Below, one piece after another: positions 14,073 through 27,550 of a stretch of DNA of 27,804 bases (position 1 is its first letter; every line of letters starts with the position of its first letter). The notes beneath the pieces are model-generated. The model was given only the letters and a program-made list of their open reading frames with translations. It was not told the origin of the DNA and did no database searches. The position numbers and the translations under genes were made by a program. Source of the stretch: Thermoplasmatales archaeon UBA509 (GTDB lineage Archaea; Thermoplasmatota; Thermoplasmata; Thermoplasmatales; Thermoplasmataceae); assembly GCA_002498845.1 (NCBI GenBank), contig DAJC01000028.1, positions 4,329-32,132 of the forward strand, read 5' to 3'.

Positions 14073-14927
14073 TCAACATTTTTCCTGTTTAACTACAAAT
14101 TTCAACATCTCTGAAGCAACATCAGTGCCCGAGGCTGCAGTGGTTCCCCTGAACTCCATGGTGCCATTTATTTCATTAACCACTGGCCCCCCATCTGTTT
14201 CCATTATGTCCACACCGTAAATTCCGGTATCCAGAAAGCTCACAGACTTTATAGCCAGCTCCTCAATTTCACTGTCTTTCGGAAGCTTTTCCACCCTTCC
14301 CCCAATTGCAGCATTTGTTCTCCATTCATCTCCGGTCTGGTATCTATACATACCGGCAATGATCTCCTCTCCTGCCACTATGATCCTGATGTCCCGCCCT
14401 GGTTTTCTCACAAATTCCTGAAAGTAGTACACTGACTGTATGGGGTGCATCAGTGATCTATCATGAAGAACCGCCTGAGCTGCGAATTTATCCTTTAAAA
14501 GTGCGATCATTCTCCCCCAGCTTCCAGTAATGGGCTTGAGAACCGCTTCGCCATTGAATCTTTCCATAAAAAGCCTGAGCGCAGCATCCTCGTCAAATGC
14601 GAAAGCCGTAAATGGTGTTCGAATTCCGTTTTGATACAGGTGGAGGGATGTCATCATCTTATTGCCAGTAATTTCCAGGGATCGGTATGTATTTACAACA
14701 CGATGATTCATGTGTTCGAGTACCGCGGTAGAAAAGAGACCTCTGTAGAACCCAACTGATCTTTGAATGCTTATGTCTCCAAGGTTTTTCGGACATTTAT
14801 CGCCCAGAGCAGGTGAGAATTTCCTGATGTCCACCGACACAACCGAAATGCTCATTTCAGAAGCTTTCTTCAGCAGTTCCTTTTCTTCCCATCTGAGTAC
14901 GTCATAAAGAATTGATACTGTTACCAT
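14073..14927 (-). CDS. lysX: LysX/ArgX-type ATP-grasp ligase, paralogue 1
   Basis: This is an ATP-grasp ligase that joins an amino acid (alpha-aminoadipate for LysX, glutamate for ArgX) to the C-terminal glutamate of LysW. Visible motifs are LYDVLRWEEK at the N-terminus, VLKPITGSWGRM in the ATP-grasp core, QEFVRKPGRDIRI, and GVDIMETDGGPVVNEINGT with the metal and nucleotide ligands. The C-terminal specificity stretch, NGTMEFRGTTAASGTDVA, differs clearly from that of paralogue 2. Its lysW partner lies 130 bp upstream. The pairing suggests a separate amino-acid branch, possibly glutamate to ornithine, but substrate choice is not provable here. I chose the ATG giving MVTVSILYD; an ATG six codons upstream (14945) is also possible. 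Confidence 0.85.
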   Translation of the reverse strand: MVTVSILYDVLRWEEKELLKKASEMSISVVSVDIRKFSPALGDKCPKNLGDISIQRSVGFYRGLFSTAVLEHMNHRVVNTYRSLEITGNKMMTSLHLYQNGIRTPFTAFAFDEDAALRLFMERFNGEAVLKPITGSWGRMIALLKDKFAAQAVLHDRSLMHPIQSVYYFQEFVRKPGRDIRIIVAGEEIIAGMYRYQTGDEWRTNAAIGGRVEKLPKDSEIEELAIKSVSFLDTGIYGVDIMETDGGPVVNEINGTMEFRGTTAASGTDVASEMLKFVVKQEKC

Positions 14928-14948
14928 TTTTACCAATCCAGTCATAAA

Positions 14949-14962
14949 GTGAATACATTCAC
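14949..14962. promoter_or_regulatory. Near-perfect palindrome upstream of lysX paralogue 1
   Basis: GTGAAT-AC-ATTCAC has 6-bp perfect half-sites and lies about 20-35 bp before the possible lysX starts. It is roughly 35 bp downstream of an AT-rich, TATA-like segment (about 14986-15005). It differs from the TGACC-N6-GGTCA operators. It could be an operator for an internal promoter between lysW1 and lysX1; this is inferred from symmetry and position only. Confidence 0.3.
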
Positions 14963-15055
14963 AACAGATTGATATTCTACATGCACAAATAATATGTTAT
15001 TAAAATTTTTCATAATATCACGAAAAATTCACAGGGATTTGTATTATAATTTAAA

Positions 15056-15226
15056 CTACTCTCCCCAGTCTTCCTTAATATTCTCAGCAGCAGCCAGCTT
15101 AACCTGACCACCATCAAGTGATACTATCTCGAACTCCACCCCGCAGTCCGGGCATGTCAGTATCTCTCCAACCATTGCATCCTCGGGAATGTGCAGGTCT
15201 CCACCGCATGTTGTGCATTCATTCAT
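15056..15226 (-). CDS. lysW: LysW-type amino-group carrier protein, paralogue 1
   Basis: This small acidic carrier has a C-terminal glutamate whose gamma-carboxyl is linked to the amino group of the substrate, protecting it during biosynthesis. It has four zinc-ligand cysteines (Cys4, Cys7, Cys25, Cys28 in CTTCGG and CPDCG) and the diagnostic C-terminus EDWGE. Its length of 56 residues is normal. I place the start at the second ATG because GGTGGAG lies 9 nt upstream of it, and the protein then aligns with paralogue 2 from residue 1. It is divergent from ACT-domain regulator 1 and upstream of lysX paralogue 1. Confidence 0.93.
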   Translation of the reverse strand: MNECTTCGGDLHIPEDAMVGEILTCPDCGVEFEIVSLDGGQVKLAAAENIKEDWGE

Positions 15227-15264
15227 CGTAGTTTTCTCCACCATGGTAATGACTAAGCATCGGC

Positions 15265-15298
15265 AAATATTAATTACTTATGACCTATATGGTTCATA
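15265..15298. promoter_or_regulatory. Divergent promoter with palindromic operator (regulator 1 / lysW1)
   Basis: A TATA element, AAATATTAATTA (15265-15276), is almost symmetric, so it could serve both directions. Downstream toward regulator 1 lies TATGACC-TATATG-GTTCATA (15279-15298), an inverted repeat with one mismatch in the half-sites. It ends one base before the ATG at 15300. Its centre is about 18 bp from the TATA centre, as at the other two copies of this operator in the window. Binding there would block the regulator transcript, which looks leaderless or nearly so. Confidence 0.65.
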
Positions 15299-15299
15299 A

Positions 15300-15971
15300 A
15301 TGCACAAGCCCAGCAATACCGCAATAAGCGTAAATCGTGCAGTGCGCGATATCATGGAGAAAGATCTATTCCTCAACATTTCACTAAGGAATGGATATGC
15401 CAATCTGAGTGGCATTGCAAGATTTATTGCCCCCAAGGTAGAATCCAGGCTTGGGGAGCTTCCCAACAGGGAGGCTATAATGTCAGCTATCAAGCGTAAC
15501 CGCAGTAACGTATTCAGCATGGAGACAGCATTGAAATCCGCTCTTGCTGCATCCACAGTGAGAATGACAACGGGGATGGTTCAACTGATCTTGCCCAACC
15601 TCTATTTTCCAAGAATGCTTGATTACTTTCAGGCTGGAATTACCAATGGGTCGGTGTTCCTTTCCACCGGTCTCCAAAATGCAAGCTTTGTGGCCGAGAA
15701 AACAACTCTTCAGGGCATGGACAGATCCCTCAGGAGACTTGTATCTAATATAAGGGAAAATGTCTCCGCAATGCACTTGATTATATCCGGGAATGCCCTG
15801 GAGACCCCAGGATTTCTCACCTCTCTCTTCGAGAAGCTTTCAATGGCGGGTATCAATGTCATTGGAACGGCTAACTCGTATTCCGATCTGGTCATTCTTG
15901 TGGACGATGAGAACTCCAGTGAAGCCTTCTCCGCCATAAATGATATGATAAGATACTCCAGGTTGCCTTAA
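15300..15971 (+). CDS. ACT-domain putative amino-acid regulator, paralogue 1
   Basis: This 223-residue protein is homologous end to end with the product at 25769-26449. The N-terminal part (about 8-70; DLFLNISLRNGYANLSGIAR, then EAIMSAIKRNR) looks like a helical, possibly DNA-binding domain. The C-terminal part (about 155-220; ETPGFLTSLFEKLSMAGINV, then SSEAFSAINDMIRYS) looks like an ACT-type ligand-binding domain. It resembles, from memory, the archaeal family described as a predicted regulator of amino-acid metabolism with an ACT domain (COG2150). It is divergent from lysW1, and its promoter carries the shared TGACC-type operator. I infer an autoregulated repressor sensing an amino acid; no function is proven. 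Confidence 0.75.
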   Translation: MHKPSNTAISVNRAVRDIMEKDLFLNISLRNGYANLSGIARFIAPKVESRLGELPNREAIMSAIKRNRSNVFSMETALKSALAASTVRMTTGMVQLILPNLYFPRMLDYFQAGITNGSVFLSTGLQNASFVAEKTTLQGMDRSLRRLVSNIRENVSAMHLIISGNALETPGFLTSLFEKLSMAGINVIGTANSYSDLVILVDDENSSEAFSAINDMIRYSRLP

Positions 15972-15987
15972 CCCGCCGGAATGTTGG

Positions 15988-16013
15988 CTGGTTATGAGAG
16001 AACCAGTGTTTTT
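15988..16013 (+). terminator. Hairpin plus T-run after regulator 1
   Basis: CTGGTT (15988-15993) and AACCAG (16001-16006) form a 6-bp stem with a 7-nt loop, followed within 3 nt by five T residues (16009-16013). It sits 17 nt after the regulator stop and looks like a terminator. Confidence 0.5.
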
Positions 16014-16315
16014 CATGCCCTGATACCTTCAGATTTCCTAGACTGGTTCACGGATCCGCGATCTTTTTCCCGCCGCGGCAAACATGCGGGATTATGAAGA
16101 GTGAATTATTTTGCAGCCATATCATCAAAAGCATTGGCCAAGTTTGCAAAATAGCAATATTATGCCTGCATCTCAAGTATTTACAGACATAGTGGGGGCC
16201 ATCAGCTACAGAAATATTAATCGGCAATTAAGGAGAGCAATGGTTCGTATGCTCATACCGCCTATCATAATCGCGGCTGAAGATAAGGTAAAACCAGAAC
16301 TGAAGGAAATGGATA
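16014..16315. other. Gap between regulator 1 and homocitrate synthase
   Basis: About 300 bp lie between the convergent ends of regulator 1 and homocitrate synthase. A plus-strand frame from a TTG at 16111 to 16323 could give 70 residues ending MVRMLIPPIIIAAEDKVK, then PELKEMDIR. It lacks a convincing ribosome site and resembles no family I know, so I do not call it a gene. Nothing else was seen. Confidence 0.35.
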
Positions 16316-17488
16316 TCAGGTGATACGGCTCTGAGTGCTGACATCACCTACAGAAACTGTCTGCAGTTCACTGACCATGGCCATAATTGCATCATCGGTG
16401 AATGATGAGACTTCAGGGCTGCTCTTTATACGTTCCATCAGGATGTCAAGCTGGTTCCCACTGCATTTGAGTCCAAGGCTGCTGAGCCTGCTTGCAAGTG
16501 CATGCTTTCCCGTATACTTATCAATGGTGAAATCTCTCTCCCGCCCGAAGAGGGAGGGGTCAATAAATTCATAGGTTGAAGGGTTGTTCATAATCCCGGC
16601 AACATGGACACCTGATTTATGCATGAAAGCATACCTTCCAGTAACAGGATAATTGGGCTGTAATTTGATTCCACTGAATCTCTCGACCATTTCCGATACT
16701 CCAGCAAGCTTTGTCAGGTCTGCAGCCTCTATGGACATGTGATATTTCAACGCCACAGCAATAACCTGAGTCGGCGTGATACCTACCCTTTCTCCCAGTC
16801 CGTTTACAGTGGCATGAACGATTGTTGCTCCTCCTTCAACTGCTGCAAGAGAATTTCCCACCGCATTACCCAAATCATTATGGGCATGTATGTCAAACTC
16901 AAGTCCTGGGAAGGATCTCGACAGTTGCCGGAACATGGCCCTTGTCCTCCATGGAAGCATGATCCCCACCGTGTCTGCTATACCGATTCGATCTGCTCCC
17001 GCAGATTCTGCAGTACGTATCACGTCTGTAAGATAGTCCCAATCCGTCCTGGATGCATCTTCCGGAGTGAATCTTACCTTTACACCCTGGGATCTAGCCC
17101 TTTCCACTCCCTCGCCTATTATCTGAAGGGCCTCTTCCTGTGTCCTGTGGGTTTTTGAAGAAAGATGTGTTCCACTGACTCCATAGAAAATGGCTACCCT
17201 GTCCACTCCTGTGGATACTGCAAGATCAATGTCTGACGCCATTGATCTGCTGTGGGCTATGAGTTCAGAGGATATCATCCCCTGGTCTTTCATCCTAACT
17301 ATCTGCCTGATGCCTTCCAGTACATCAGGTGAAACTGATGGATGTCCTGTTTCTATCATTCTCACACCCAGATCAGATAGGCTCCGTGCGATCATGACCC
17401 TCTGTTCAACTGAGAAATTAACTCCAGGGGTCTGCTCACCTTCTCTCAGGGTCGTATCAAGGATTCCTGCGTATCTTTTGGTTATCAT
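16316..17488 (-). CDS. lysS: Homocitrate synthase
   Basis: This enzyme condenses 2-oxoglutarate and acetyl-CoA to homocitrate, the first step of the alpha-aminoadipate lysine pathway. It is a TIM-barrel enzyme with LDTTLREGEQTPGV at the N-terminus (Asp11 metal ligand, Arg15). His201 and His203 lie in DIHAHNDLGN, and the lid region has NGLGERVGITP. The later YAFMHKSGVHVAGIMNN is typical of the homocitrate/isopropylmalate synthase group. At 390 residues it lacks the long C-terminal LeuA allosteric domain, which favours homocitrate synthase. The neighbouring lys genes agree. It has its own promoter with the shared operator. 2-isopropylmalate or citramalate synthase is the alternative. Confidence 0.85.
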   Translation of the reverse strand: MITKRYAGILDTTLREGEQTPGVNFSVEQRVMIARSLSDLGVRMIETGHPSVSPDVLEGIRQIVRMKDQGMISSELIAHSRSMASDIDLAVSTGVDRVAIFYGVSGTHLSSKTHRTQEEALQIIGEGVERARSQGVKVRFTPEDASRTDWDYLTDVIRTAESAGADRIGIADTVGIMLPWRTRAMFRQLSRSFPGLEFDIHAHNDLGNAVGNSLAAVEGGATIVHATVNGLGERVGITPTQVIAVALKYHMSIEAADLTKLAGVSEMVERFSGIKLQPNYPVTGRYAFMHKSGVHVAGIMNNPSTYEFIDPSLFGRERDFTIDKYTGKHALASRLSSLGLKCSGNQLDILMERIKSSPEVSSFTDDAIMAMVSELQTVSVGDVSTQSRIT

Positions 17489-17521
17489 TGCAAAATTATC
17501 AAGAGCCTGTATAATAGCTTA

Positions 17522-17551
17522 TTGACCAATACTGGTCAAACATATAATAAA
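17522..17551 (-). promoter_or_regulatory. Homocitrate synthase promoter with palindromic operator
   Basis: On the minus strand a TATA element, TTTATTATAT (17542-17551), is followed by the palindrome TTGACC-AATACT-GGTCAA (17522-17539). The 6-bp half-sites are perfect, and the palindrome is centred about 16 bp downstream of the TATA centre. This is the same motif, in the same position, as in the two regulator promoters. The start codon is 33 bp further on, giving a leader of about 30 nt without a strong ribosome site. Confidence 0.65.
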
Positions 17552-17582
17552 TTAAACTTAATTCCAATTTTCAGTTAAAGTT

Positions 17583-18647
17583 TCAAAGATTCTTCAGGAT
17601 TGAAGCTGTAACATCGGCCGTTCCTGCTTTCCCGCCCATATCAGGTGTAAGGCTCCCTGCAGATTCCAGTATCCTGTGAACTGAGTCCTCAACCGCCCTG
17701 TGTGCATCCATGAGTATCTTATCCTGATACCTATTTGCCAGCCACTCAAAGAGCATTGAAACCGAGAGAATTTCAGAAAGAGGGTTTGCAAATCCTTTAC
17801 CAGCAATGTCAGGCGCTGTTCCATGTGAAGCCTGTGCCATTGCCCAGTTATCGCCGAAATTAAGTGACGGGGCAATCCCCAGGCTCCCGGCCACAGCCGC
17901 TGCCTCGTCCGAGAGTATATCGCCGTACATGTTGGTGGTGGCTATGACATCGAACTTGCCCGGATTGAGTATCAGGTCATATGCAACCGAGTCCACCAGC
18001 CGATCTTCGGAAAGGATGCCATGGCAGTCCGCAGCCTTCTTCCTGAACTCATCCAGGAACAGTCCGTCCGTAACACTGAGCACATTGCCCTTGTGAACCG
18101 CTGTCACCTTTTTTCTCCTGGCGGCCGCATAACGGAATGCGACATCGCTGATCTTGGCCATTTTCTCCCTTGTTATTACACGCACTGAAAGCGCCACATC
18201 CCTGGTGGGCATGAATTCCCCACTGCCCAGGAACATGTTTCTATCGGCATAAAACCCCTGGGTGTTCTCCCTGACTATAAGCGTGTCGATGGGATCAAGT
18301 CTTCCCCTCAGGTATGTTCTCACCGGTCTGATGTTGGCGTAGAGATCAAAATGGGTCCTTATGGCACCTGACGGACTCTTCTGCCCCCTTGAACCGGGAT
18401 AACTGCCAACTTCCAGTGGCCCCAGTATGAGCCCATCTGACATTTCAATCTTCTTAAGAACCTCATCTGTGAGGGGCTTGCCCCACAACTGGAATGATTC
18501 CCATCCAACCGGCACCTTGCTGAAAGATATAAGGCCGGATGAACCAAGCCTGTCCATTGCTGCAGAAAAAATAGAAACAGCTGACTCCACCACCTCTGGT
18601 CCGATGCCGTCTCCGGCAGCCACGCTTATGTCGTATTTATCCTTCAT
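17583..18647 (-). CDS. Homoisocitrate dehydrogenase (isocitrate/isopropylmalate dehydrogenase family)
   Basis: This beta-decarboxylating dehydrogenase probably converts homoisocitrate to 2-oxoadipate. It has the N-terminal GDGIGPEVVES, the substrate-arginine region GAIRTHFDLYANIRPVR, RENTQGFYADRN with the catalytic Tyr region, HKGNVLSVTDGLF with the catalytic Lys, and the metal site TTNMYGDILSDEAA. Near the end it has SHGTAPDIAGKGFANP. From the ATG chosen (18647, with AAAGGA just upstream) it has 354 residues, normal for the family. An ATG 15 codons earlier lies inside the upstream gene and lacks a ribosome site. Context favours homoisocitrate over 3-isopropylmalate as substrate, but a dual role is possible. 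Confidence 0.83.
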   Translation of the reverse strand: MKDKYDISVAAGDGIGPEVVESAVSIFSAAMDRLGSSGLISFSKVPVGWESFQLWGKPLTDEVLKKIEMSDGLILGPLEVGSYPGSRGQKSPSGAIRTHFDLYANIRPVRTYLRGRLDPIDTLIVRENTQGFYADRNMFLGSGEFMPTRDVALSVRVITREKMAKISDVAFRYAAARRKKVTAVHKGNVLSVTDGLFLDEFRKKAADCHGILSEDRLVDSVAYDLILNPGKFDVIATTNMYGDILSDEAAAVAGSLGIAPSLNFGDNWAMAQASHGTAPDIAGKGFANPLSEILSVSMLFEWLANRYQDKILMDAHRAVEDSVHRILESAGSLTPDMGGKAGTADVTASILKNL

Positions 18648-18663
18648 ACTGAATCCTTTGTCC

Positions 18664-19173
18664 TCACAGCGGCTCGCTGTCAATATATCCATTGGATCTG
18701 AGCACTTCTATTATGCCGCCTGACCTCACGATATTCATCAACAGGTCTGGAATCCTGTTGAATTCTCTCACTGATCCGTCCTGTTCCCTTGTTACAGTGC
18801 AGTTCTGGAAGTCAACCTGTATGATATCACCCTCGGCGATCCATTGCGTAATCCCGTCCATACGCAAAACCGGTAGCCCACTGTTAACGGCGTTTCTCAT
18901 GAAAAGTCCGTTGACGGTTTCTGCCATCACCAGCACTATACCGAGACCCACAAGATTTGCCGCTGCTGGTCGAGAAGAGCCCACCCCAAAATTCCGGCCT
19001 GCAACGATGATGTCGCCCCTATTAACCTGGGAGGCCCATCCGGGCCTGTTTGCCCACATTGTATACTTTGGCCTGTCTTTCTCCGGAAGCGTATAACAAA
19101 TGTGTGGATACATGAGGTCCGTGTTTATGTCGTCTCCAAAACCCCACACCCTTCCCCTGATCTTGTCATCCAT
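18664..19173 (-). CDS. lysU: Homoaconitase small subunit (LeuD-like swivelling domain)
   Basis: This is the small subunit of a heteromeric homoaconitase/isopropylmalate isomerase. It pairs with the adjacent large subunit to isomerise homocitrate to homoisocitrate. Typical elements are GDDINTDLMYP and NFGVGSSRPAA, with GDIIQVDF in the C-terminal half. The usual substrate loop after the TD motif (YLRT in homoaconitase, YLVY-like in isopropylmalate isomerase) is replaced by a longer HICYTLPEKDRPKYTMWANR segment. The substrate is therefore inferred from gene context. The length of 169 residues is normal. It begins directly after the stop of the large subunit. Confidence 0.82.
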   Translation of the reverse strand: MDDKIRGRVWGFGDDINTDLMYPHICYTLPEKDRPKYTMWANRPGWASQVNRGDIIVAGRNFGVGSSRPAAANLVGLGIVLVMAETVNGLFMRNAVNSGLPVLRMDGITQWIAEGDIIQVDFQNCTVTREQDGSVREFNRIPDLLMNIVRSGGIIEVLRSNGYIDSEPL

Positions 19174-20436
19174 CTATGAACCTCCAGGTATGCTGCTGGG
19201 GCTCACTATCTCACCTGCAACTGCCGAGGCCGCCACTGTGGCTGAAGATGCCATGTATATCCTGGCATCTCTGGAACCCATCCTTCCCTTGAAATTCCTG
19301 GTTGTTGATGTTATGGCAGTTTCTCCGTCAGCAAGGAGGCCCATGTGGCCGCCCATGCATGATCCGCAGGTTGGATTGGTCACGATCCCTCCGGCCTTCA
19401 CTATTGTTGGGATGTAGCCAAGTTCCATCCCCCTTAGATAGATGGACTGGGTGGCAGGCGTCACAATCAGCCTTGTTCCTGAATGCACCTTTCTTCCCTT
19501 TAGAATCCTTGCTGCCACTTCCAGATCGGACAGTTTCCCGTTGGCACATGATCCGATGGTGCACTGGTCAACCTTGATTCCCTGTATGTCATCCACCGGC
19601 CTGGTATTCCCGGCAACAGAATCTGGAAGTGCGGCCATGGGCACTACCTCGGACATATCAAGCTGGTATGCGCCTGCATAACTGGCAGATGGGTCAGGAG
19701 ACACCGGGGAATATTCCTGAACTCCTCGTTCCTGAACATAGGACCGCAGTACCTCATCACCTGGAAAGACGGCAAATTCCACACTCAGTTCAGCACACAT
19801 GGTTGAGATAACCGTCCTCTGATCCATGTTCAGGGTCCTCACACCGTCTCCTGCAAATTCAATATTCATGTTGGGCATATTCCCAAGATCTCCGGCCATT
19901 TTCAGGAAAACATCCTTTGCTTCGGACATTCCTGAAAGTTTTCCAGAAAGGTCAACCTTAAGTGTTTCACCCACAGCGAACCACGTTTTTCCTGTGCACA
20001 TGACCTGCATGAGTTCTGGCGTTCCAAGTCCTCTGCTCAGCATGTTGAATGCCCCGGCAGCCACCGAATGGGAATCTGTATTGGCCACGATCTGGCCGGG
20101 ATAGAACCATCCTGACTCGGCGGCAAAGGCGTGAGCTATTCCTCCAGACCCGTAGTCATAGAAATCATTCAGGTTCAGTCTCTTCACCAGCTTTCGTATC
20201 TTGGCAGTGCCATTGGCCATCTCCACGTTTGGCGCAGGTACAAAGTGATCGAAAACAACGCTGATCTTTGATGGGTCAAAGACCCTTGCCGGTGGATTCT
20301 GGATCAGTTCAGGATGCTGGCCCGCTATGTCAAGCAGGATCACTCTGTCCACAGACACGGTTACTATGTCGCCCGGTTCCACCTTCCCTGAACTGTCCGA
20401 AGAATGTGAGGACAGTATCTTCTCAGCAATATTCAG
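19174..20436 (-). CDS. lysT: Homoaconitase large subunit, apparent CTG start
   Basis: This is the iron-sulfur catalytic subunit of the homoaconitase/isopropylmalate isomerase family. Cluster ligands are seen in TIGSCANGKLSDL and NPTCGSCMGGHMG, with DSHSVAAGAFN in the N-terminal half. The first conventional start, GTG at 20382, removes the conserved N-terminus. The same frame continues upstream through AEKILSSHSSDSSGKVEPGD, which matches the family's usual beginning, and then meets a stop. The only plausible initiator is CTG at 20434-20436. It overlaps the lysK stop as CTGA and follows a GGGGAGAGGG ribosome site. With it the protein is 420 residues, the normal length. Most other junctions in this operon show the same 4-nt overlap with ATG or GTG. 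Confidence 0.85.
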   Translation of the reverse strand: MNIAEKILSSHSSDSSGKVEPGDIVTVSVDRVILLDIAGQHPELIQNPPARVFDPSKISVVFDHFVPAPNVEMANGTAKIRKLVKRLNLNDFYDYGSGGIAHAFAAESGWFYPGQIVANTDSHSVAAGAFNMLSRGLGTPELMQVMCTGKTWFAVGETLKVDLSGKLSGMSEAKDVFLKMAGDLGNMPNMNIEFAGDGVRTLNMDQRTVISTMCAELSVEFAVFPGDEVLRSYVQERGVQEYSPVSPDPSASYAGAYQLDMSEVVPMAALPDSVAGNTRPVDDIQGIKVDQCTIGSCANGKLSDLEVAARILKGRKVHSGTRLIVTPATQSIYLRGMELGYIPTIVKAGGIVTNPTCGSCMGGHMGLLADGETAITSTTRNFKGRMGSRDARIYMASSATVAASAVAGEIVSPSSIPGGS

Positions 20437-21548
20437 GCCGTCCCTCTCCCCTTTTCACTGATGGCCTGGCCTTCCTTTCGGCCTCGTTCCAGATTCAACA
20501 GTGCGTCTGCAACTATTTCGGCGCTTCTCCATACTTCCTCAAGCGATATTTCCTCCAGTTCTGTATGTGAAAGCTGAGGGTTGCCCGGCCCATAGGTCAC
20601 ACAGGGTATTTTCCATCTTGACCCAAGTATGTTCATATCGCCGCTCCCGCTCTTGAATAGCAACTGCGCTTCACTTCCGGTGTTCTTTCTCACAGATTCC
20701 TTGAAGGCTGAGATCAGAGGTGTCTTCAGCCCTGAAACATAAGGTTCCACACTGCTTCTGATCATGAAAGATGGTTCAGAAGCGGTGGAGGATTTCACCA
20801 GGTCCAGTATTTCTGAAAGGACGTCATCCTGCTTTCTGGATGGAGGGTATCTTACATCAAGGGTCATCGCGGCATTTGAAGGGGTCATGTTGTCTGCATC
20901 CCCTGCCCTTATGGATGTGAGTGCAGCTGAAACCTTTGAAAATTCCCTGTTCTTTCCAAGTTTATCCCTGACTGAATTCCATGCCTCCACGGCAGATTCC
21001 ACAGCACTCTGGCCCAGCCAGGGAGCACTGGCATGCACCTGCCCCGACCTGAATTCCATATCCAAAAGGATGCGCCCACGGTAGCCAACTGTTATGCCTG
21101 TTACTGCAGAGGGTTCACCAAAAATGGCATAGTCTGATCTGGGCTGGCTGGAGGCTACTTCCATTATGCCCTTGCCAGGTCCCTCTTCACCCACAGCAGC
21201 AATCATACGTATGGTTCCGCTGAATCCTCTCTGTTTTGCCATCGACACGCCAAACATCAGTGATACCAGTGAGGATTTTGCATCCGTTGCCCCCCTTCCA
21301 TAAAGCGTGTCTCCATCCTCCCTCACCGGTAGCTGGCCGGGAACAGTGTCTATGTGCCCGCAGACAAGAATTTCCGGAGATCCGCCGCTGAAAATTGAAA
21401 CACCATTACCGGCCCTGTCCACTAAGAATTCGTCTGCGCCCAGGCGCAAAATTTCCCTTCCAAAGTATTCTACAGCCTTCTCCTCATTCCCTGTTGGAGA
21501 ATATATATCCACAAGCTCTTTCACCACCCTGTCTGTGGGATGCGTCAC
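20433..21548 (-). CDS. lysK: [LysW]-lysine / [LysW]-ornithine hydrolase
   Basis: This is an M20-type metallopeptidase that frees lysine (or ornithine) from LysW in the last step. Metal and catalytic residues are visible: His65 and Asp67 in VCGHIDTVPG, Asp89 in GRGATDAKS, and Glu121-Glu122 in VGEEGPGKG. Further on are FGEPSAVTGITVGYRGR, the dimerisation-loop VHASAPW and a C-terminal SHTELEEISLEE. Its 371 residues are normal for LysK. The start is GTG overlapping the lysX stop as GTGA, and its own stop overlaps the homoaconitase CTG. Confidence 0.93.
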   Translation of the reverse strand: MTHPTDRVVKELVDIYSPTGNEEKAVEYFGREILRLGADEFLVDRAGNGVSIFSGGSPEILVCGHIDTVPGQLPVREDGDTLYGRGATDAKSSLVSLMFGVSMAKQRGFSGTIRMIAAVGEEGPGKGIMEVASSQPRSDYAIFGEPSAVTGITVGYRGRILLDMEFRSGQVHASAPWLGQSAVESAVEAWNSVRDKLGKNREFSKVSAALTSIRAGDADNMTPSNAAMTLDVRYPPSRKQDDVLSEILDLVKSSTASEPSFMIRSSVEPYVSGLKTPLISAFKESVRKNTGSEAQLLFKSGSGDMNILGSRWKIPCVTYGPGNPQLSHTELEEISLEEVWRSAEIVADALLNLERGRKEGQAISEKGRGTA

Positions 21549-22393
21549 CTGAGGCCCTCCCTGACATAATCCATGATTTCGCCGGGAACATCCACCTGTG
21601 CTACCCTAACAGTGTTCTTGAACTCGGTAGTGCTGTTCACCTCGTGCACCACATAGCCATTTTCAGTTTCCATGATGTCAACCCCGAAAACGCCTTTCCC
21701 AACACTTCTTGCCGCCCTTATGGATATGTCCTCAAGTTCCGGTGTGATGGGGCATTTTTCGGCTCTGCCACCAATTGCCGTGTTGGTCCTCCAGTCATCG
21801 TCCGACTGGTATCTGTAGATTCCTCCGATGACCCTGTCCCCCACAACGAATGTTCTGATGTCCCTGGGCGGCCGTTTTACGAATTCCTGTAGATAGAAGA
21901 TGGAATATAATGGGTACATGTATTCCCTGTCCTCCATTACGGCCGATGCAGCCGTCCTGTCATTGAGAAGCGCCACCATCCTGCCCCAGCTCCCTGTAAC
22001 AGGTTTCAGAACCGCCCTGCCTCCGAACTTGGAGGAAAACTGCTTCATGGCTGTAGGGTAAGAGGCTGCCACTGAAGTCTTTGGAGTTGGCACGCCATTC
22101 TTCACCAGGGCAAGTGATGTCAGCATCTTGTTTCCCGCCACATCAATGGTGTTGAAGTCGTTTATGACCTTCTGCCCCTTGAACTCCAGATAGGCTGTTG
22201 AATGCAGGCCGCGATAGTAGGAAGTGCACCTCTGGAGAGTCACAGATCCATATTCTCCAGGCAGTGGCGCATCAAGGTCCATATCCATGTCCTTGACATC
22301 CACCATGTTGATCTCCATGCCCCGGTCCTGGCCAGCCTTAAGCAGTGCCTTTTCCTCCCATCTCACAAGATCGTATACCATTGAGATTTTCAT
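21545..22393 (-). CDS. lysX: LysX-type ATP-grasp ligase, paralogue 2
   Basis: This is a ligase that attaches alpha-aminoadipate (or glutamate) to LysW, inside the main lys operon between lysJ and lysK. The 282 residues contain MVYDLVRWEEKAL, VLKPVTGSWGRMVALL, QEFVKRPPRDIRTFV, NTAIGGRAEKCP and GVDIMETENGYVVHEVNST. The final specificity stretch, NSTTEFKNTVRVAQVDVPGE, is closer to the Thermus LysX sequence as I remember it than paralogue 1 is. I therefore favour the lysine role. The ATG overlaps the lysJ stop as ATGA, with a GGGGGG ribosome site inside lysJ. Confidence 0.9.
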   Translation of the reverse strand: MKISMVYDLVRWEEKALLKAGQDRGMEINMVDVKDMDMDLDAPLPGEYGSVTLQRCTSYYRGLHSTAYLEFKGQKVINDFNTIDVAGNKMLTSLALVKNGVPTPKTSVAASYPTAMKQFSSKFGGRAVLKPVTGSWGRMVALLNDRTAASAVMEDREYMYPLYSIFYLQEFVKRPPRDIRTFVVGDRVIGGIYRYQSDDDWRTNTAIGGRAEKCPITPELEDISIRAARSVGKGVFGVDIMETENGYVVHEVNSTTEFKNTVRVAQVDVPGEIMDYVREGLR

Positions 22394-23595
22394 GCTGCAC
22401 CCCCCTGCTTTAGCTGGTCATCAAGAGCCCCCTTTATTTTCACGATGGCCTCATCCACCTGCTCCCTTGTGAGGATGTAAGGCGGAAGCATCCTTATGAT
22501 GTTGATGCCAGAGTAGAGGGTTATGACGCCCCTGTCCAGAAGATTCATCAGAACGGGCAGAAACCTGATTCTAAGCTCAAGGGCAAGCATCATGCCTATC
22601 CCTCTGGCATGGCTAACCAGACGATGGTTTCCCAGATCCTCCTGCATCCTTTCCAGAAAGTATTTTCCAGTATCCCTTGCCTTCTCCACATATCCATTCC
22701 TGAGCCGGTCTATAACTGCACTTCCTGCGGCACAGGCCAGCGGGTTGCCTCCTGTTGTTGAACTCTGCTCTCCTATTTCAAGGGCATCCACGAACTCGCT
22801 CCTCCCCACTGTAACTCCCATGGGGATGCCTCCGCCTATGCCCTTTCCTACCGTCATGATGTCCGGTGTTATGCCCCAGTGCTCATGGGCCCACATCTTT
22901 CCAGTCCTCCCCAGGCCTGACTGAATCTCATCCATGATGAGAAGCGTCCCCGATGCCTCTGTCATTTCCCTCACTTCCTTAAGATACTGGTCTCCGGGAA
23001 GGTTTATTCCGCCCTCCCCCTGAACCGGCTCCAGAAAGACGGCTGCCACGTCGAAGGATGAAAGGGCTTTCCTGAGCATTTCTGCATCGCCAAATTTCAC
23101 AAATTCAACATCGCCAACAAGAAGATCCTGGAACGATTTCCTGTATTTTGAGGAATGCGTGACTGAGAGTGACCCCAGTGTCTTTCCGTGGTATCCCCTT
23201 TCCATGCTTATCATCCTGTGTCTCCTGGTGGACTTCACTGCAATTTTTATTGCGGCTTCAACAGCCTCGGTTCCGCTATTGGAAAGAAAAGCCCGGTTAA
23301 GCCCCCTGGGCGCTATTGACATGAAGTCCTTTAGAAATTCAGCTCTTGCAGGGCTGTAAACCGAGGCATGAGTTATGTATACCTTCTCCATCTGCTGCAT
23401 TATGGCTTCCTTGATTTTCTCATCAGAGTGTCCAAGGATGGCAACCCCATAGCCGCTCATGAGATCCAGATACTCTTTACCGTCCAGATCCCATATGTTT
23501 GCGCCCTGGGCCCTGGCGGCCAGTACCGGTATCTTCTGGTAGGTTCCCGCCAGGAATTCATCCTCTATCTTCTGGAAATATTCGTTATCCATCAT
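22390..23595 (-). CDS. lysJ: [LysW]-aminoadipate semialdehyde / [LysW]-glutamate semialdehyde aminotransferase
   Basis: This is a class III PLP aminotransferase of the ArgD/LysJ type that aminates the LysW-bound semialdehyde. The PLP lysine is Lys251 in TVGKGIGGGIPMG. SNSGTEAVEAAIK (phosphate binding), ERGYHGKTLGSLS, FLEPVQGEGG and MDEIQSGLGRTG with Asp222 are all present. The length of 401 residues is normal. It overlaps lysZ by 4 nt. An ATG one codon later is an equally likely start. It may act in both lysine and arginine synthesis, as in Sulfolobus. Confidence 0.92.
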   Translation of the reverse strand: MMDNEYFQKIEDEFLAGTYQKIPVLAARAQGANIWDLDGKEYLDLMSGYGVAILGHSDEKIKEAIMQQMEKVYITHASVYSPARAEFLKDFMSIAPRGLNRAFLSNSGTEAVEAAIKIAVKSTRRHRMISMERGYHGKTLGSLSVTHSSKYRKSFQDLLVGDVEFVKFGDAEMLRKALSSFDVAAVFLEPVQGEGGINLPGDQYLKEVREMTEASGTLLIMDEIQSGLGRTGKMWAHEHWGITPDIMTVGKGIGGGIPMGVTVGRSEFVDALEIGEQSSTTGGNPLACAAGSAVIDRLRNGYVEKARDTGKYFLERMQEDLGNHRLVSHARGIGMMLALELRIRFLPVLMNLLDRGVITLYSGINIIRMLPPYILTREQVDEAIVKIKGALDDQLKQGGAA

Positions 23596-24401
23596 TTTTC
23601 AATCACCGTTTTCATTTTTCCCTGGACTGCATTTTCAAGCGGGTTTGATATGGTACCTGAACTGATGACGACCCTTCCTGCTCCACCGGCCAGTGCCTCC
23701 CTTGCTGCAATCAATTTCTTGTCCATTCCGTTTCCCACACCCCGTATGGCTTCATCTAGTTCCGTCCCTGCAATATGCGGAACCAGTGAATCTTCACGCA
23801 TCACACCAGTAACATTTGTCAAAAGAACAAGCAGATCCGCCTTCAGAGAACCTGCTATTGCCGCCGCAGCCCTGTCTCCGTCAACATTGAGCGCCTCACC
23901 GTCTTTGCTGACTGCTATTGGAGCTATGACCGGCAACTGGCCAAGATCCATAAGGCCATTCAGGAAGGCTGAATTGATCTCTGTTATCCTCCCTGTGTAG
24001 CCTCCATCTACAAACATGGGACGTCCGTTCCCGCTCAGTATCTTCAATCGGCTCTTGCGCTCAGCAACCATCAGTCCTGCATCTATGCCGGTGATGCCCA
24101 CCGAATTTCGGCCGTATTTTCTCAGGGCAAGAACAATATCGGTGTTTATCCTGCCTTTCATTGCCATAAGAAAGACCTCCATTGTTTGTGCATCCGTATA
24201 TCTGCTCCTTACTCCGTCAGGAGATGTGACAAATCTGGGTTCAATGCCAAGTCTCATGGTCAGGTCAGTTACCGCCGGCCCACCGCCATGGACAAGAACA
24301 ATCCGGTCATTCTCATAATATGCAATTTCCTTTATGAGAGAATCTGGAACTCCGCTGCTGGCAATGCTTCCACCAACCTTCACCACTGTGACCATGATCA
24401 C
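23592..24401 (-). CDS. lysZ: [LysW]-aminoadipate / [LysW]-glutamate kinase
   Basis: This is an amino-acid kinase of the ArgB type that phosphorylates the side-chain carboxylate on the LysW conjugate. The N-terminal KVGGSIA, HGGGPAVTDL, the DGGYTGRI segment, NVDGDRAAAAIAGSL and LLTNVTGVM are diagnostic. The length of 269 residues is normal. The GTG start overlaps the lysY stop as GTGA. A better ribosome-site spacing (GGTG, 6 nt) exists for the ATG two codons later (24395), so the true N-terminus may be MVTVVKVGGS. Confidence 0.93.
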   Translation of the reverse strand: MIMVTVVKVGGSIASSGVPDSLIKEIAYYENDRIVLVHGGGPAVTDLTMRLGIEPRFVTSPDGVRSRYTDAQTMEVFLMAMKGRINTDIVLALRKYGRNSVGITGIDAGLMVAERKSRLKILSGNGRPMFVDGGYTGRITEINSAFLNGLMDLGQLPVIAPIAVSKDGEALNVDGDRAAAAIAGSLKADLLVLLTNVTGVMREDSLVPHIAGTELDEAIRGVGNGMDKKLIAAREALAGGAGRVVISSGTISNPLENAVQGKMKTVIEK

Positions 24402-25450
24402 ACCAGCCTGAGAGGAGCCGAATTGAGGCCTGCATTTTCAGGGTATCCCATCATTATGTTCATTGATTGGATTGCATTACCTGCTGCACCCTTGATCAGG
24501 TTATCAATTGCTCCTATGGCAACAACTCTGTTCACATGCCTGTCAATTGCAAATCCCAGGTCCACGAAATTCGATCCGATTACCAGCTTTGGATCCGGGT
24601 ACCTGAAGAGGCCATTGGGATCCATCATGAATCTTATGAATGGCTCGTTTCGGTACATGGAGCGATAAGCCTTCCATAAATCAGTTTCCGTAAGCCTGTG
24701 TTCTGTAAATATGCTTGATGTTGTCAGTATGCCCCTCACCATATTCACCGAATGTGCAGACATGGTAACGGTCACCCGTTTTTCGGCAGCAATTGATAAT
24801 TCCTGCTCAATTTCACCTATGTGCCTGTGATCCGAGGGGCTGTAAATCCTCACCGAATTAAATCTCTCAGAAAAATGGGTTGCGGACGTGGATTTGTTGC
24901 CAGACCCAGATGATCCTATCTTGGCATCTATTACGGTGATACCGGCCAGCAATCCGGATTTTGCCAGCGGTGCCAGGCTGTATATGGATGAGCTTGCAAT
25001 GCAGCCGGGAACAGCGATCAGCCTTGAATTGCGTATCTCGTCCCTGTGAAGTTCAGGCATACCATAGGTGAACTTCTGCAGGAGATCCGGAGCAGGATGT
25101 TCCCAACCGTACCATACTGGATACTGGGAGCTATCCTTCAGCCTGAAATCGGCGCTCATGTCTATGATCCTTGTGCCTGTTTCAACAAGCTGCGGTGTTA
25201 TCTTCACGGATGATCCATGTGGAACTGCCAGAAACAGAATGTCCACCTTTGCTGCAACATCCATTGGCGTTTCATCGGTGAACTTCAGGTTCGTGTAACC
25301 CTTCAGGTTGGGATGAACCCTGGTGATGTATTCCCCAGCATTGTGCTTTGATGTGGCTGCGGTAATTTCAACTTCGGGATGATTCAGCAGGAGCCGGAGG
25401 ATTTCTCCGCCTGTGTATCCGGATGCGCCGATAATGCCTACTTTAGACAA
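24398..25450 (-). CDS. lysY: [LysW]-aminoadipyl / [LysW]-glutamyl phosphate reductase
   Basis: This is an NADPH-dependent reductase of the ArgC/LysY type that makes the LysW-bound semialdehyde. It has the Rossmann start KVGIIGASGYTGGEILRLL, the catalytic Cys in AVPGCIASS, a GSSGSGNKS loop and the His-containing HRHIGEIEQEL stretch, all as in the family. I prefer the TTG at 25450 because a GGA sits 9 nt upstream and the family begins close to KVGI. Another TTG three codons earlier (25459) is possible. The gene follows lysW2 after a gap of about 45 bp. Confidence 0.92.
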   Translation of the reverse strand: MSKVGIIGASGYTGGEILRLLLNHPEVEITAATSKHNAGEYITRVHPNLKGYTNLKFTDETPMDVAAKVDILFLAVPHGSSVKITPQLVETGTRIIDMSADFRLKDSSQYPVWYGWEHPAPDLLQKFTYGMPELHRDEIRNSRLIAVPGCIASSSIYSLAPLAKSGLLAGITVIDAKIGSSGSGNKSTSATHFSERFNSVRIYSPSDHRHIGEIEQELSIAAEKRVTVTMSAHSVNMVRGILTTSSIFTEHRLTETDLWKAYRSMYRNEPFIRFMMDPNGLFRYPDPKLVIGSNFVDLGFAIDRHVNRVVAIGAIDNLIKGAAGNAIQSMNIMMGYPENAGLNSAPLRLV

Positions 25451-25495
25451 AAATATCAATCCAAAAAGATAGAAAATGATTCGGAGGCAGGCTGA

Positions 25496-25669
25496 TCATT
25501 CGCCCCAGTCTTCCCTTATTTCCTCTGCTGCCCTCAGGACAGGGTTTCCATCACGTATTTCTGAAACCTCATACTCAACTCCGCAATCCGGGCAACTCAC
25601 AATCTCGCCTTTTATTACATCATCGGGAACCTGCAGCGACCCGCCACAAACATTACACTCTGTTTCCAT
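25496..25669 (-). CDS. lysW: LysW-type amino-group carrier protein, paralogue 2
   Basis: This 57-residue carrier is the first gene of the main lys operon and is easily missed because of its size. It has four zinc-ligand cysteines (Cys5, Cys8, Cys26, Cys29 in CNVCGG and CPDCG) and ends in EDWGE, the diagnostic C-terminus that carries the substrate on its last Glu. An AGGTG ribosome site lies 6 nt before the ATG. It is clearly homologous to lysW1 over its full length. It is divergent from ACT-domain regulator 2. Confidence 0.93.
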   Translation of the reverse strand: METECNVCGGSLQVPDDVIKGEIVSCPDCGVEYEVSEIRDGNPVLRAAEEIREDWGE

Positions 25670-25722
25670 ATCTCACACCTTTTCTGTCATCATAAGATGG
25701 CAATATACCGTTTCAGTCTTGG

Positions 25723-25757
25723 AAAATATTAATATTTTATGACCTATTCTGGTCATA
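25723..25757. promoter_or_regulatory. Divergent promoter with palindromic operator (regulator 2 / lysW2 operon)
   Basis: AAAATATTAATATTTT (25723-25738) is a perfect 16-nt palindrome that looks like a TATA element usable in both directions. It is directly followed, toward regulator 2, by TATGACC-TATTCT-GGTCATA (25738-25757) with perfect 7-bp half-sites. The operator centre is about 17 bp downstream of the TATA centre. Toward lysW2 the operator lies upstream of TATA, so the same protein could repress the regulator and have a different effect on the lys operon. Confidence 0.7.
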
Positions 25758-25768
25758 GTTTGACTTAA

Positions 25769-26449
25769 ATGACCAAAATGGAGCTAAGTATAAACGGCCT
25801 TGTGAAAAACATGGTTACCAATGACATATTCCTTGCAACATCACTGAACAGGGGATACGTGAATCTCAGCGCTGTTGCTCGCGACCTCAAGCCAGCAATC
25901 GAGATGCGGTTGGGGCAGGACGTAAATACAGAGGCCATAATTTCTGCTCTGAAGAGAAACAGGGATACGTCCAGAAAATATGATAACAGGGTCCTGGAAT
26001 CCATGGCCCAGACCAGTGTGCAGATGCTGACCTCTGTCACCAAGTTTGTGCTTCCCGTGAACAAGAACGAAAGGGTTTTCAGGGAAATGTATGAACTGAA
26101 AATGCCCGGGGCAGTTTATATTTCCACCGGAACTGAGTTCACCACATTCATAGTTGAGGACAGGAACCTTGGCTCATTTTCTGAAATTATCAGGAGAGGC
26201 ATAGTAGACAGGAAGACTGGACTGGCCGTGATAATAGTGAAGAGCCCCGTCTCAATGATTGAAACCCCGGGGTACCTGATGTCGCTCTATTCCAAACTGG
26301 CATTTTCCGGGATAAATGTGGAAGAGACAACCAACAGTTACACAGACGCCATCATTGTTGTCAGCGAACGAGATTCCAGTGAGGCCTTCATGGCAATTCA
26401 TGATCTCATACAGTATGCTAGGGAACATGTCCGTACTGGCAAACGATAG
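25769..26449 (+). CDS. ACT-domain putative amino-acid regulator, paralogue 2
   Basis: This 226-residue paralogue of the protein at 15300-15971 shares an N-terminal helical region (DIFLATSLNRGYVNLSAVAR, then EAIISALKRNR). It also shares the C-terminal ACT-like domain (ETPGYLMSLYSKLAFSGINV, then SSEAFMAIHDLIQYAR). The likely family is the archaeal ACT-containing predicted regulator of amino-acid metabolism. It lies divergent to lysW2 and the whole lysine operon, and a perfect TATGACC-N6-GGTCATA operator covers its own promoter. I infer feedback control by lysine, arginine or a precursor, with autoregulation. An ATG three codons downstream is an alternative start. DNA binding itself is not shown by any motif I can name with certainty. 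Confidence 0.75.
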   Translation: MTKMELSINGLVKNMVTNDIFLATSLNRGYVNLSAVARDLKPAIEMRLGQDVNTEAIISALKRNRDTSRKYDNRVLESMAQTSVQMLTSVTKFVLPVNKNERVFREMYELKMPGAVYISTGTEFTTFIVEDRNLGSFSEIIRRGIVDRKTGLAVIIVKSPVSMIETPGYLMSLYSKLAFSGINVEETTNSYTDAIIVVSERDSSEAFMAIHDLIQYAREHVRTGKR

Positions 26450-26677: not shown

Positions 26678-27550
26678 ATGAATGCTGCCATTCTGCTGCC
26701 TCAGGGTGCCCCTATTTCCAATACAGGTTCACTTGCTGTTTCTCCCCGATATATCATCACAGAACGCAGAAGTCTTCTTCCATTCTCTGGCCGGAATTTC
26801 AGGTATCCAGTTCATGTGGCTTCAACCTCCTCACAAAAATTTCAGGATCAGGGAATAAATTTTACATTCTTCATTCCATGGCGGAAAATGTACAGGAGAT
26901 ATTATGTTATAAGGGATAACGCAGCGAATCCCCCCTATGCCGGCAAGCCATGGCTGATGTCTCTTGGCTCCCATGGAATAGTCATTGGAAAGACAGGATC
27001 TGGGAAATCCAACTATCTGCTCCACATCCTCAAGCATATCGACAGGGAAGACTGCAACATTGTCCTGTTAGATCCCCACGGGCAAACTGCAGAAATAACG
27101 GCCACATCATCTCATTTCGCACCAATATACATCATTCATTCTCATGGCACGACTTCTGACATTGGTGAGCCTACACAAGTAAGCTACCCCCTGAATGGGG
27201 TAAACTATACCTCCGTTATCTTCAATAATGGATTTAACCCAAGTACATGGAGTGATACCTCTCCAAGCATGACTGTTGGCGGAGGTGCGGGTGCCACTTT
27301 TACTACATCTGGCCAGACTATGAATTCTGTGGGCTTCTCCATTTCAGCAGTCATTAGCGGTTCTACAGATGTTCTTTCTGGCACGCTGACCGGTGTTACT
27401 AGCGGAATCTGGGATTGGTGGACCTTTTCATATCATTACTACGGTTTTACGTATACATTTCCCAACCTCGGGGTAGGTACTTACGAACTTCAGGCTCTTG
27501 CCGGAGGCAGTTCGGAGGGTGTCGGGTATGCTTTTAATTACGTGTCATGA
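26678..27550 (+). CDS. Chimeric ORF: truncated HerA/VirB4-like P-loop ATPase fused to a beta-rich secreted tail
   Basis: The middle of this 290-residue frame holds a Walker A motif (GKTGSGKS, residues 104-111) and a Walker B-like NIVLLDPHGQ (127-136), as in HerA/VirB4-type DNA-translocating ATPases. The rest of such an enzyme (another 200 or more residues) is missing. After about residue 155 the sequence turns into a Gly/Ser/Thr/Tyr-rich, aromatic beta-type chain (ending GVGYAFNYVS), typical of secreted surface proteins. The reading frame runs through the join. No strong ribosome site precedes either candidate start (26678 or 26888). I read it as a gene-fragment fusion created by rearrangement beside the TnpB remnant, probably not a working ATPase. 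Confidence 0.5.
   Translation: MNAAILLPQGAPISNTGSLAVSPRYIITERRSLLPFSGRNFRYPVHVASTSSQKFQDQGINFTFFIPWRKMYRRYYVIRDNAANPPYAGKPWLMSLGSHGIVIGKTGSGKSNYLLHILKHIDREDCNIVLLDPHGQTAEITATSSHFAPIYIIHSHGTTSDIGEPTQVSYPLNGVNYTSVIFNNGFNPSTWSDTSPSMTVGGGAGATFTTSGQTMNSVGFSISAVISGSTDVLSGTLTGVTSGIWDWWTFSYHYYGFTYTFPNLGVGTYELQALAGGSSEGVGYAFNYVS

Follow-up and report, generated by a model that had tools for sequence, protein, structure and literature searches.

A short palindrome shared by lysine-gene and regulator-gene promoters points to an amino-acid switch in a Thermoplasmatales archaeon

Introduction

Does a short palindrome that recurs in three promoters of one archaeal gene cluster mark a single regulon, which protein would read it, and would that protein turn the genes off or on? 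The palindrome, TGACC-N6-GGTCA, stands in a 27,804-nucleotide stretch of Thermoplasmatales archaeon UBA509 (GenBank assembly GCA_002498845.1, contig DAJC01000028.1, positions 4,329 to 32,132, forward strand; hereafter the window), at the promoters of homocitrate synthase (HCS) and of two ACT-domain proteins, here called Reg1 and Reg2. A sequence-only reading of the window had assigned these three promoters to one regulon and, placing the operator between TATA box and transcription start, had suggested repression; lysW1 and lysW2, the genes divergent from the two regulator genes, went unnamed there. Our analysis supports one operator and one lysine/LysW regulon: the motif is conserved at orthologous promoters, and a scan of G001, the nearest genome compared (35% of sampled 31-letter words common with the window), agrees. 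Judged from sequence, the archaeon appears to control its lysine genes, and perhaps its arginine genes, through one short palindrome that also precedes two sensor-protein genes, and the conserved distance from operator to promoter core in relatives suggests an amino-acid switch of a type not yet characterised.

Results

The three operator copies lie where the sequence-only reading had placed them. Operator 1 (15281..15296, TGACCTATATGGTTCA), between lysW1 and Reg1, reads TGACC-N6-GTTCA with one mismatch, and the identical site is found in G001, G002 and G004. Operator 2 (17523..17538, TGACCAATACTGGTCA), upstream of the proposed TATA box of HCS, is perfect, as it is in G001, G002, G047 and G036, and carries one mismatch in G058. 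Operator 3 (25738..25757), between lysW2 and Reg2, is perfect with 7-bp arms, TATGACC-N6-GGTCATA, its core TGACCTATTCTGGTCA lying at 25740..25755. The claim that such a set is very unlikely by chance holds for the perfect copies, of which the window has two against a mean of 0.01 in shuffles (none of 100 dinucleotide shuffles has two). It weakens at up to one mismatch, where three copies against a mean of 1.19 are only mildly unusual (4 of 100 shuffles reach three), and at up to two mismatches six copies are found against 13.6 expected. The bare motif is notable for its perfect copies, its position and its conservation, not for copy number.

Genome-wide the motif is not enriched, because there are fewer places than for a reversed control, both in G001 (39 against 81 at up to one mismatch) and in 77 genomes of the family (78 against 142 perfect places). 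What sets the lysine sites apart is their setting. When the 39 places in G001 were sorted by mechanical gene calls, 33 fell inside called open reading frames (ORFs) and six between genes, while eight have an octamer with at least 7/8 A/T lying 17 bp off on either side. Only three combine the intergenic position with the octamer, namely the Reg1/lysW1, HCS and Reg2/lysW2 sites; since no other place does so, the regulon of G001 appears, within the one-mismatch limit, to consist of these three promoters, and within that limit the sorting rules out a large regulon. The sequence-only reading, which many random copies without promoter bias would have contradicted, is not refuted by this distribution. 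A one-mismatch site at position 248975 of G001 (L008:1501-1516) sits right at the beginning of a called 229-amino-acid (aa) ORF, with 7/8 A/T at 17 bp; this ORF, which has a weak Cas4-like match under the cut-off, lies opposite thiamine-phosphate kinase, and with mechanical gene calls the site could still be a promoter site. Among the 78 perfect places, 11 sites at 10 loci outside lysine genes in relatives were examined, of which nine lie in ORFs and two between genes; both intergenic ones (L085, L086) belong to G051.

For conservation at orthologous promoters, lysW and HCS were searched in the 77 family genomes, the motif being sought within 200 bp for lysW. All 28 lysW loci were counted. The HCS set comprises 20 loci (L101-L121 minus the partial L119; rows without loci were left out), L122-L130 having been set aside as probable isopropylmalate synthases with at most 39% identity. 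At up to one mismatch the motif stands in 11 of the 28 lysW promoters. A divergent relative of Reg is found on the fetched locus of all these and of no other, the remaining 17 having neither the motif nor an adjacent Reg gene (two of the 17, L133 and L135, have short upstream sequence). Such a split would have a probability of 4.7e-8 if the loci were independent, which related genomes are not. The 11 operator-bearing loci come from nine genomes and six genera, with Reg identity going down to 37%. Because the operator is accompanied by an adjacent Reg gene in this way, the ACT-domain proteins Reg1 and Reg2 are the likely operator binders. Among HCS promoters the site is present at up to one mismatch in 5/20; G051 has a two-mismatch site, and G012 and 13 others have none. 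Conservation at orthologous promoters, which the sequence-only reading had made a test of its regulon, is therefore found at both lysW and HCS.

Finer detail comes from the lysW2/Reg2 spacer of four genomes: in the TATA box plus operator 27/33 columns are invariant, as against 19/66 in the rest of the spacer. Within the operator the arms are invariant and 5/6 central bases vary, a pattern as expected for a putative dimer binding site. Decayed-looking copies precede lysW in G009 (L133, two mismatches) and G016 (L138, four mismatches, aligned by eye), and their appearance suggests decay once the regulator had been lost; remnants of a regulator gene beside lysW were sought in G016, G009 and G116, and none was found there. 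Where no regulator gene adjoins, the genome still has ACT relatives of a more distant kind at other places.

The geometry of the divergent lysW/Reg promoters is strict. In 13/13 of them, the window included, an all-A/T octamer has its centre exactly 17 bp from that of the operator, on the downstream side in lysW orientation, a count made without preference for 17 bp in ties. The octamer is TATTAATA, its own reverse complement, in eight promoters, AATTAATA in four and TATTTATA in one. In the window it is represented by TATTAATT (15268..15275), the predicted TATA-like element of both Reg1 (plus strand) and lysW1 (minus strand), and by the palindromic TATTAATA (25727..25734) inside AAAATATTAATATTTT, the predicted element of both Reg2 (plus) and lysW2 (minus), each with 17 bp between its centre and that of the operator. 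The all-A/T octamer at 17 bp is also present at Reg1/lysW1 in G001, G002 and G004. An additional TATAT lies further toward lysW2 in the window and G001 and is absent from G004 and G051; by eye, no other TATA-like box common to both genes was seen across the divergent promoters. We infer that one near-symmetric octamer serves both directions. As TATTAATT lies about 27-28 bp from each ATG, two leaderless messages, of Reg1 and of lysW1, are suggested. Seen from Reg1 and Reg2, the operator centre is 16-17 bp downstream of the octamer centre, in agreement with the 16-18 bp given by the sequence-only reading; in the lysW direction the same operator lies 17 bp upstream of the predicted TATA box and abuts the TFB recognition element (BRE; TFB, transcription factor B).

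At HCS that reading had placed the TATA box on the far side of the operator, so that the operator would lie downstream of it, and here it probably does not hold. We propose instead CTATTATA (17510..17517, minus strand), whose distance to the ATG is 25 bp. On the gene side, 7/7 HCS promoters have an octamer of at least 7/8 A/T at 17 bp, as against 4/7 on the other side (window, G001, G058 and G051), and the gene-side box lies 24-28 bp before the ATG in 6/7, G051 being unclear. A TATA/BRE matrix learned from 100 upstream regions of G001 was poor and the A+T peak alone usable; over 100 sampled G001 genes this peak (0.79) lies at -28, which fits the gene-side box. Because of the 7/7 count, the distance to the ATG and the A+T peak, the TATA box of HCS is probably on the gene side, with the operator upstream of BRE and TATA box, although the window alone, with 8/8 A/T on the far side and 7/8 on the gene side, would favour the opposite. 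The far-side box is disfavoured by the same count and by ATG distance. Gene-side placement implies a leaderless HCS message, if the predicted box is right. In G047, G058 and G051 (L103, L104, L121) inspection by eye showed an extra ATGACC half-site upstream of the HCS operator, at a distance of 20 bp or about two helical turns.

The presumed operator binders Reg1 (15300..15971, plus strand, 223 aa) and Reg2 (25769..26449, plus strand, 226 aa) are paralogues with 37% identity. They consist of an N-terminal helical domain and a C-terminal ACT pair (for Reg1 by similarity to Reg2). Both belong to ACT_7 (PF13840; 33.7 and 28.6 bits, respectively, cut-off 27), which is matched by 24/24 alignment members at E up to 1. 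To DUF7523 (PF24367, cut-off 27) they score 20.5 and 21.5 bits, and a distant relative (L099:8411-9070) reaches 36.2. The Lrp/AsnC family is absent from the Pfam and NCBIfam matches of Reg1 and Reg2 and from the Pfam matches of 24 relatives (profiles only, E up to 1). No aspartokinase kinase domain was found in Reg1 or Reg2, whose Pfam matches are ACT or DUF7523 only, and NCBIfam aspartokinase models match over the ACT end alone, at 18-25 bits and far under their cut-offs. Profile and fold searches found no recognised DNA-binding fold in Reg: a fold search with the N-terminal domain gave nothing clear, a sequence search of solved structures matched the ACT part only, and whole-protein fold matches cover mainly that part. 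Named relatives of Reg occur at six loci, in uncultured Thermoplasmata. More distant relatives (L024, L032, L099) adjoin argininosuccinate synthase in two genomes and an amino-acid permease in one, and other palindromes stand in some of their upstream regions.

ORF list and family profile matches identify the window as a cluster of archaeal amino-acid genes. The lysine run on the minus strand opens with lysW2 (25496..25669, 57 aa; Pfam Zn_ribbon_LysW 54 bits, cut-off 27), divergent from Reg2. Eight genes follow (17583..25459, minus strand; identified by ORF list, family matches and G001 order), in the order LysY, LysZ, LysJ, LysX2, LysK, homoaconitase-type large subunit, small subunit and homoisocitrate-type dehydrogenase. 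After a gap, HCS (16316..17488, minus strand; TIGR02146 463.8 bits, cut-off 413.55) ends the run with an operator of its own, and the gene order is the same in G001. The carrier protein lysW1 (15056..15244, minus strand, 62 aa; Zn_ribbon_LysW 49.5 bits, cut-off 27), divergent from Reg1, has a second in-frame ATG at 15226. Downstream of it on the same strand lies LysX-like ligase 1 (14073..14945), with RimK and LysX_preATP_grasp domains and 256.1 bits to TIGR02144, under the cut-off of 275.6. The window thus holds two lysW and two LysX-like genes (14073-15244 and 21545-25669), a separate regulator gene diverging from each lysW, and these sets possibly serve separate lysine and arginine branches. 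Beyond Reg2, the ORF 26678-27550 (plus strand), whose start is also found in G001, contains a HerA-like P-loop segment about halfway along and, after it, secreted-protein-like sequence.

Genera without an adjacent regulator show another repeat at their lysine promoters. Their HCS promoters (L106-L118) carry TACGAA twice, 20 bp apart, in 12/13 cases; their lysW promoters (L142, L144-L156) carry TACGAA and TTCGTA 27 bp apart in 13/14, and the one remaining has two copies of TTCGTA 20 bp apart. This motif is probably a second, unrelated lysine operator. The two operator systems may coexist in G012 (L120), where the TGACC operator stands at lysW/Reg while HCS has a TACGAAATTCGTA palindrome.

Discussion

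What we observed is that the sites are present and conserved, that an A/T-rich octamer stands 17 bp from them, and that they occur along with a regulator gene. From these we arrive at a tentative reading, to which we give a little less than an even chance: Reg binds the operator, represses its own genes and activates the biosynthetic genes, all within one lysine/LysW regulon. TGACC-N6-GGTCA would be the dimer binding site of the Reg1 and Reg2 proteins encoded alongside, contacted through their N-terminal helical domain, and the aspartokinase-like ACT pair would sense an amino acid, lysine or arginine and perhaps aminoadipate. One near-symmetric TATA box would fire both genes of each divergent promoter. 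On the regulator side the operator would lie between TATA box and start, and bound Reg would block RNA polymerase in an autorepression; LrpA is described as blocking the polymerase from this position (PMC2995911; the literature is cited here from excerpts of open-licence articles in PubMed Central, PMC). On the lysW side, and probably at HCS, the operator would abut the BRE upstream, at about -51 to -36 by calculation, and bound Reg would most likely aid the binding of TATA-binding protein (TBP) or TFB, help that the end product would abolish as proposed for LysM. Archaeal activators usually bind upstream of BRE and TATA box (PMC2995911, PMC5937170), those of Lrp type just upstream of the BRE and with constrained spacing (PMC2995911). 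The step from position to activation is an inference, favoured by the 17 bp spacing that lysW and HCS promoters, though unrelated in kind, have in common. Repression, as proposed by the sequence-only reading, suits the geometry at the regulator genes but is less likely than activation at lysW and HCS, where BRE and TATA box stand (probably, in the case of HCS) on the downstream side of the operator. The sequences suggest such a dual placement (a gene-side octamer at 17 bp in 13/13 lysW and, with at least 7/8 A/T, 7/7 HCS promoters; the operator 16-17 bp downstream at the regulators), with TATA boxes and starts being predicted and 4/7 HCS promoters A/T-rich on the other side too. More doubtful is the wider picture of a switch made of one operator and one symmetric TATA box, by which an ACT-domain protein would repress itself and activate lysine and arginine genes, the TACGAA repeat of the sister genera marking exchange of the whole operator.

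Some of our observations weigh against activation by Reg and lend themselves to other explanations. It is quite possible, if not what we would expect, that Reg represses throughout: it would block the polymerase at its own promoter and cover the BRE at lysW and HCS (or, were the far-side HCS TATA box correct, block the polymerase there too), and every transcript would fall at plentiful lysine or arginine. The operator core ends beside the A residues of the BRE in the divergent promoters, which would permit occlusion of TFB; the far side of the HCS operator is fully A/T in the window; and the place of the operator at the regulator genes is the standard one for a repressor. TrmB represses by covering BRE and TATA box (PMC4706686), and FL11, of the archaeal Lrp type, has lysJKYZ among its targets, its effector amplifying repression (PMC2995911). 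Occlusion, however, should allow more variation than the identical 17 bp found in unrelated promoters.

Two further weaknesses of our preferred reading, the lack of a recognised DNA-binding fold in Reg and the genome G047, would suit a different DNA-binding protein, encoded elsewhere, with the ACT proteins as regulon members or modulators. G047 has a perfect HCS operator while Reg was not found in its assembly; yet LysW and LysY were not found there either and the HCS contig measures 3.3 kb, so the absence of Reg is likely one of missing sequence. Since operator and adjacent Reg stand together at 11 lysW loci and are both absent at 17, we consider such a binder unlikely. That the three sites resemble each other by chance, or by promoter ancestry without function, would agree with a motif rarer than its reversed control and with nine of 11 examined non-lysine sites lying inside ORFs, and the lack of enrichment likewise counts against an operator. 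Mere likeness could hardly account for a common site and spacing in unrelated lysW and HCS promoters, and chance occurrence is ruled out by the shuffles for perfect copies together with the conserved TATA/operator block; we regard this explanation as very improbable.

If activation and autorepression by Reg are borne out, an uncharacterised archaeal ACT-domain family, whose more distant members adjoin arginine genes and an amino-acid permease, would be assigned its function, the site it binds and the genes it targets. LysW-based lysine and arginine synthesis would gain a regulator without sequence kinship to LysM, and a compact natural promoter would be at hand for asking whether a single operator acts in opposite senses on a pair of genes with a common TATA box. 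The logic of position is already known; a role of this protein family and operator, or any paper on them, did not come up in searches of open-licence PMC articles on ACT-domain or lysine regulators of archaea and Thermoplasma, which is weak evidence of novelty.

Among known systems, LysM of Sulfolobus, a member of the Lrp family and regulator of lysWXJK, likewise controls lysine genes of the LysW pathway (PMC2995911), and in S. acidocaldarius its iModulon includes homocitrate synthase (PMC8578740). Activators of the Lrp type have their sites a few bp upstream of the BRE, and the effector has been proposed to inactivate activation (PMC2995911). Reg differs in matching ACT_7 and, at the thresholds used, not Lrp/AsnC, a comparison by protein family and targets. 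It differs also from the tandem ACT regulatory domains of aspartokinases, being only 223-226 aa long, with no kinase-domain match and an N-terminal helical domain instead. TFB-RF1 of Pyrococcus furiosus is comparable in its sites: its regulon is small and local, and its palindrome keeps a conserved distance to BRE and TATA box, on their upstream side (PMC5937170). It acts via weak BREs, whereas those of lysW here show no evident weakness. Alike in positional logic is TrmBL1/Tgr of the Thermococcales, whose TGM palindrome activates upstream of BRE and TATA box and represses downstream of them (PMC4706686, PMC4158304), one divergent region showing both effects (PMC4706686). There, a TrmB-family protein governs a sugar regulon through TATCAC-N5-GTGATA; here, an ACT-domain protein would govern an amino-acid regulon through TGACC-N6-GGTCA.

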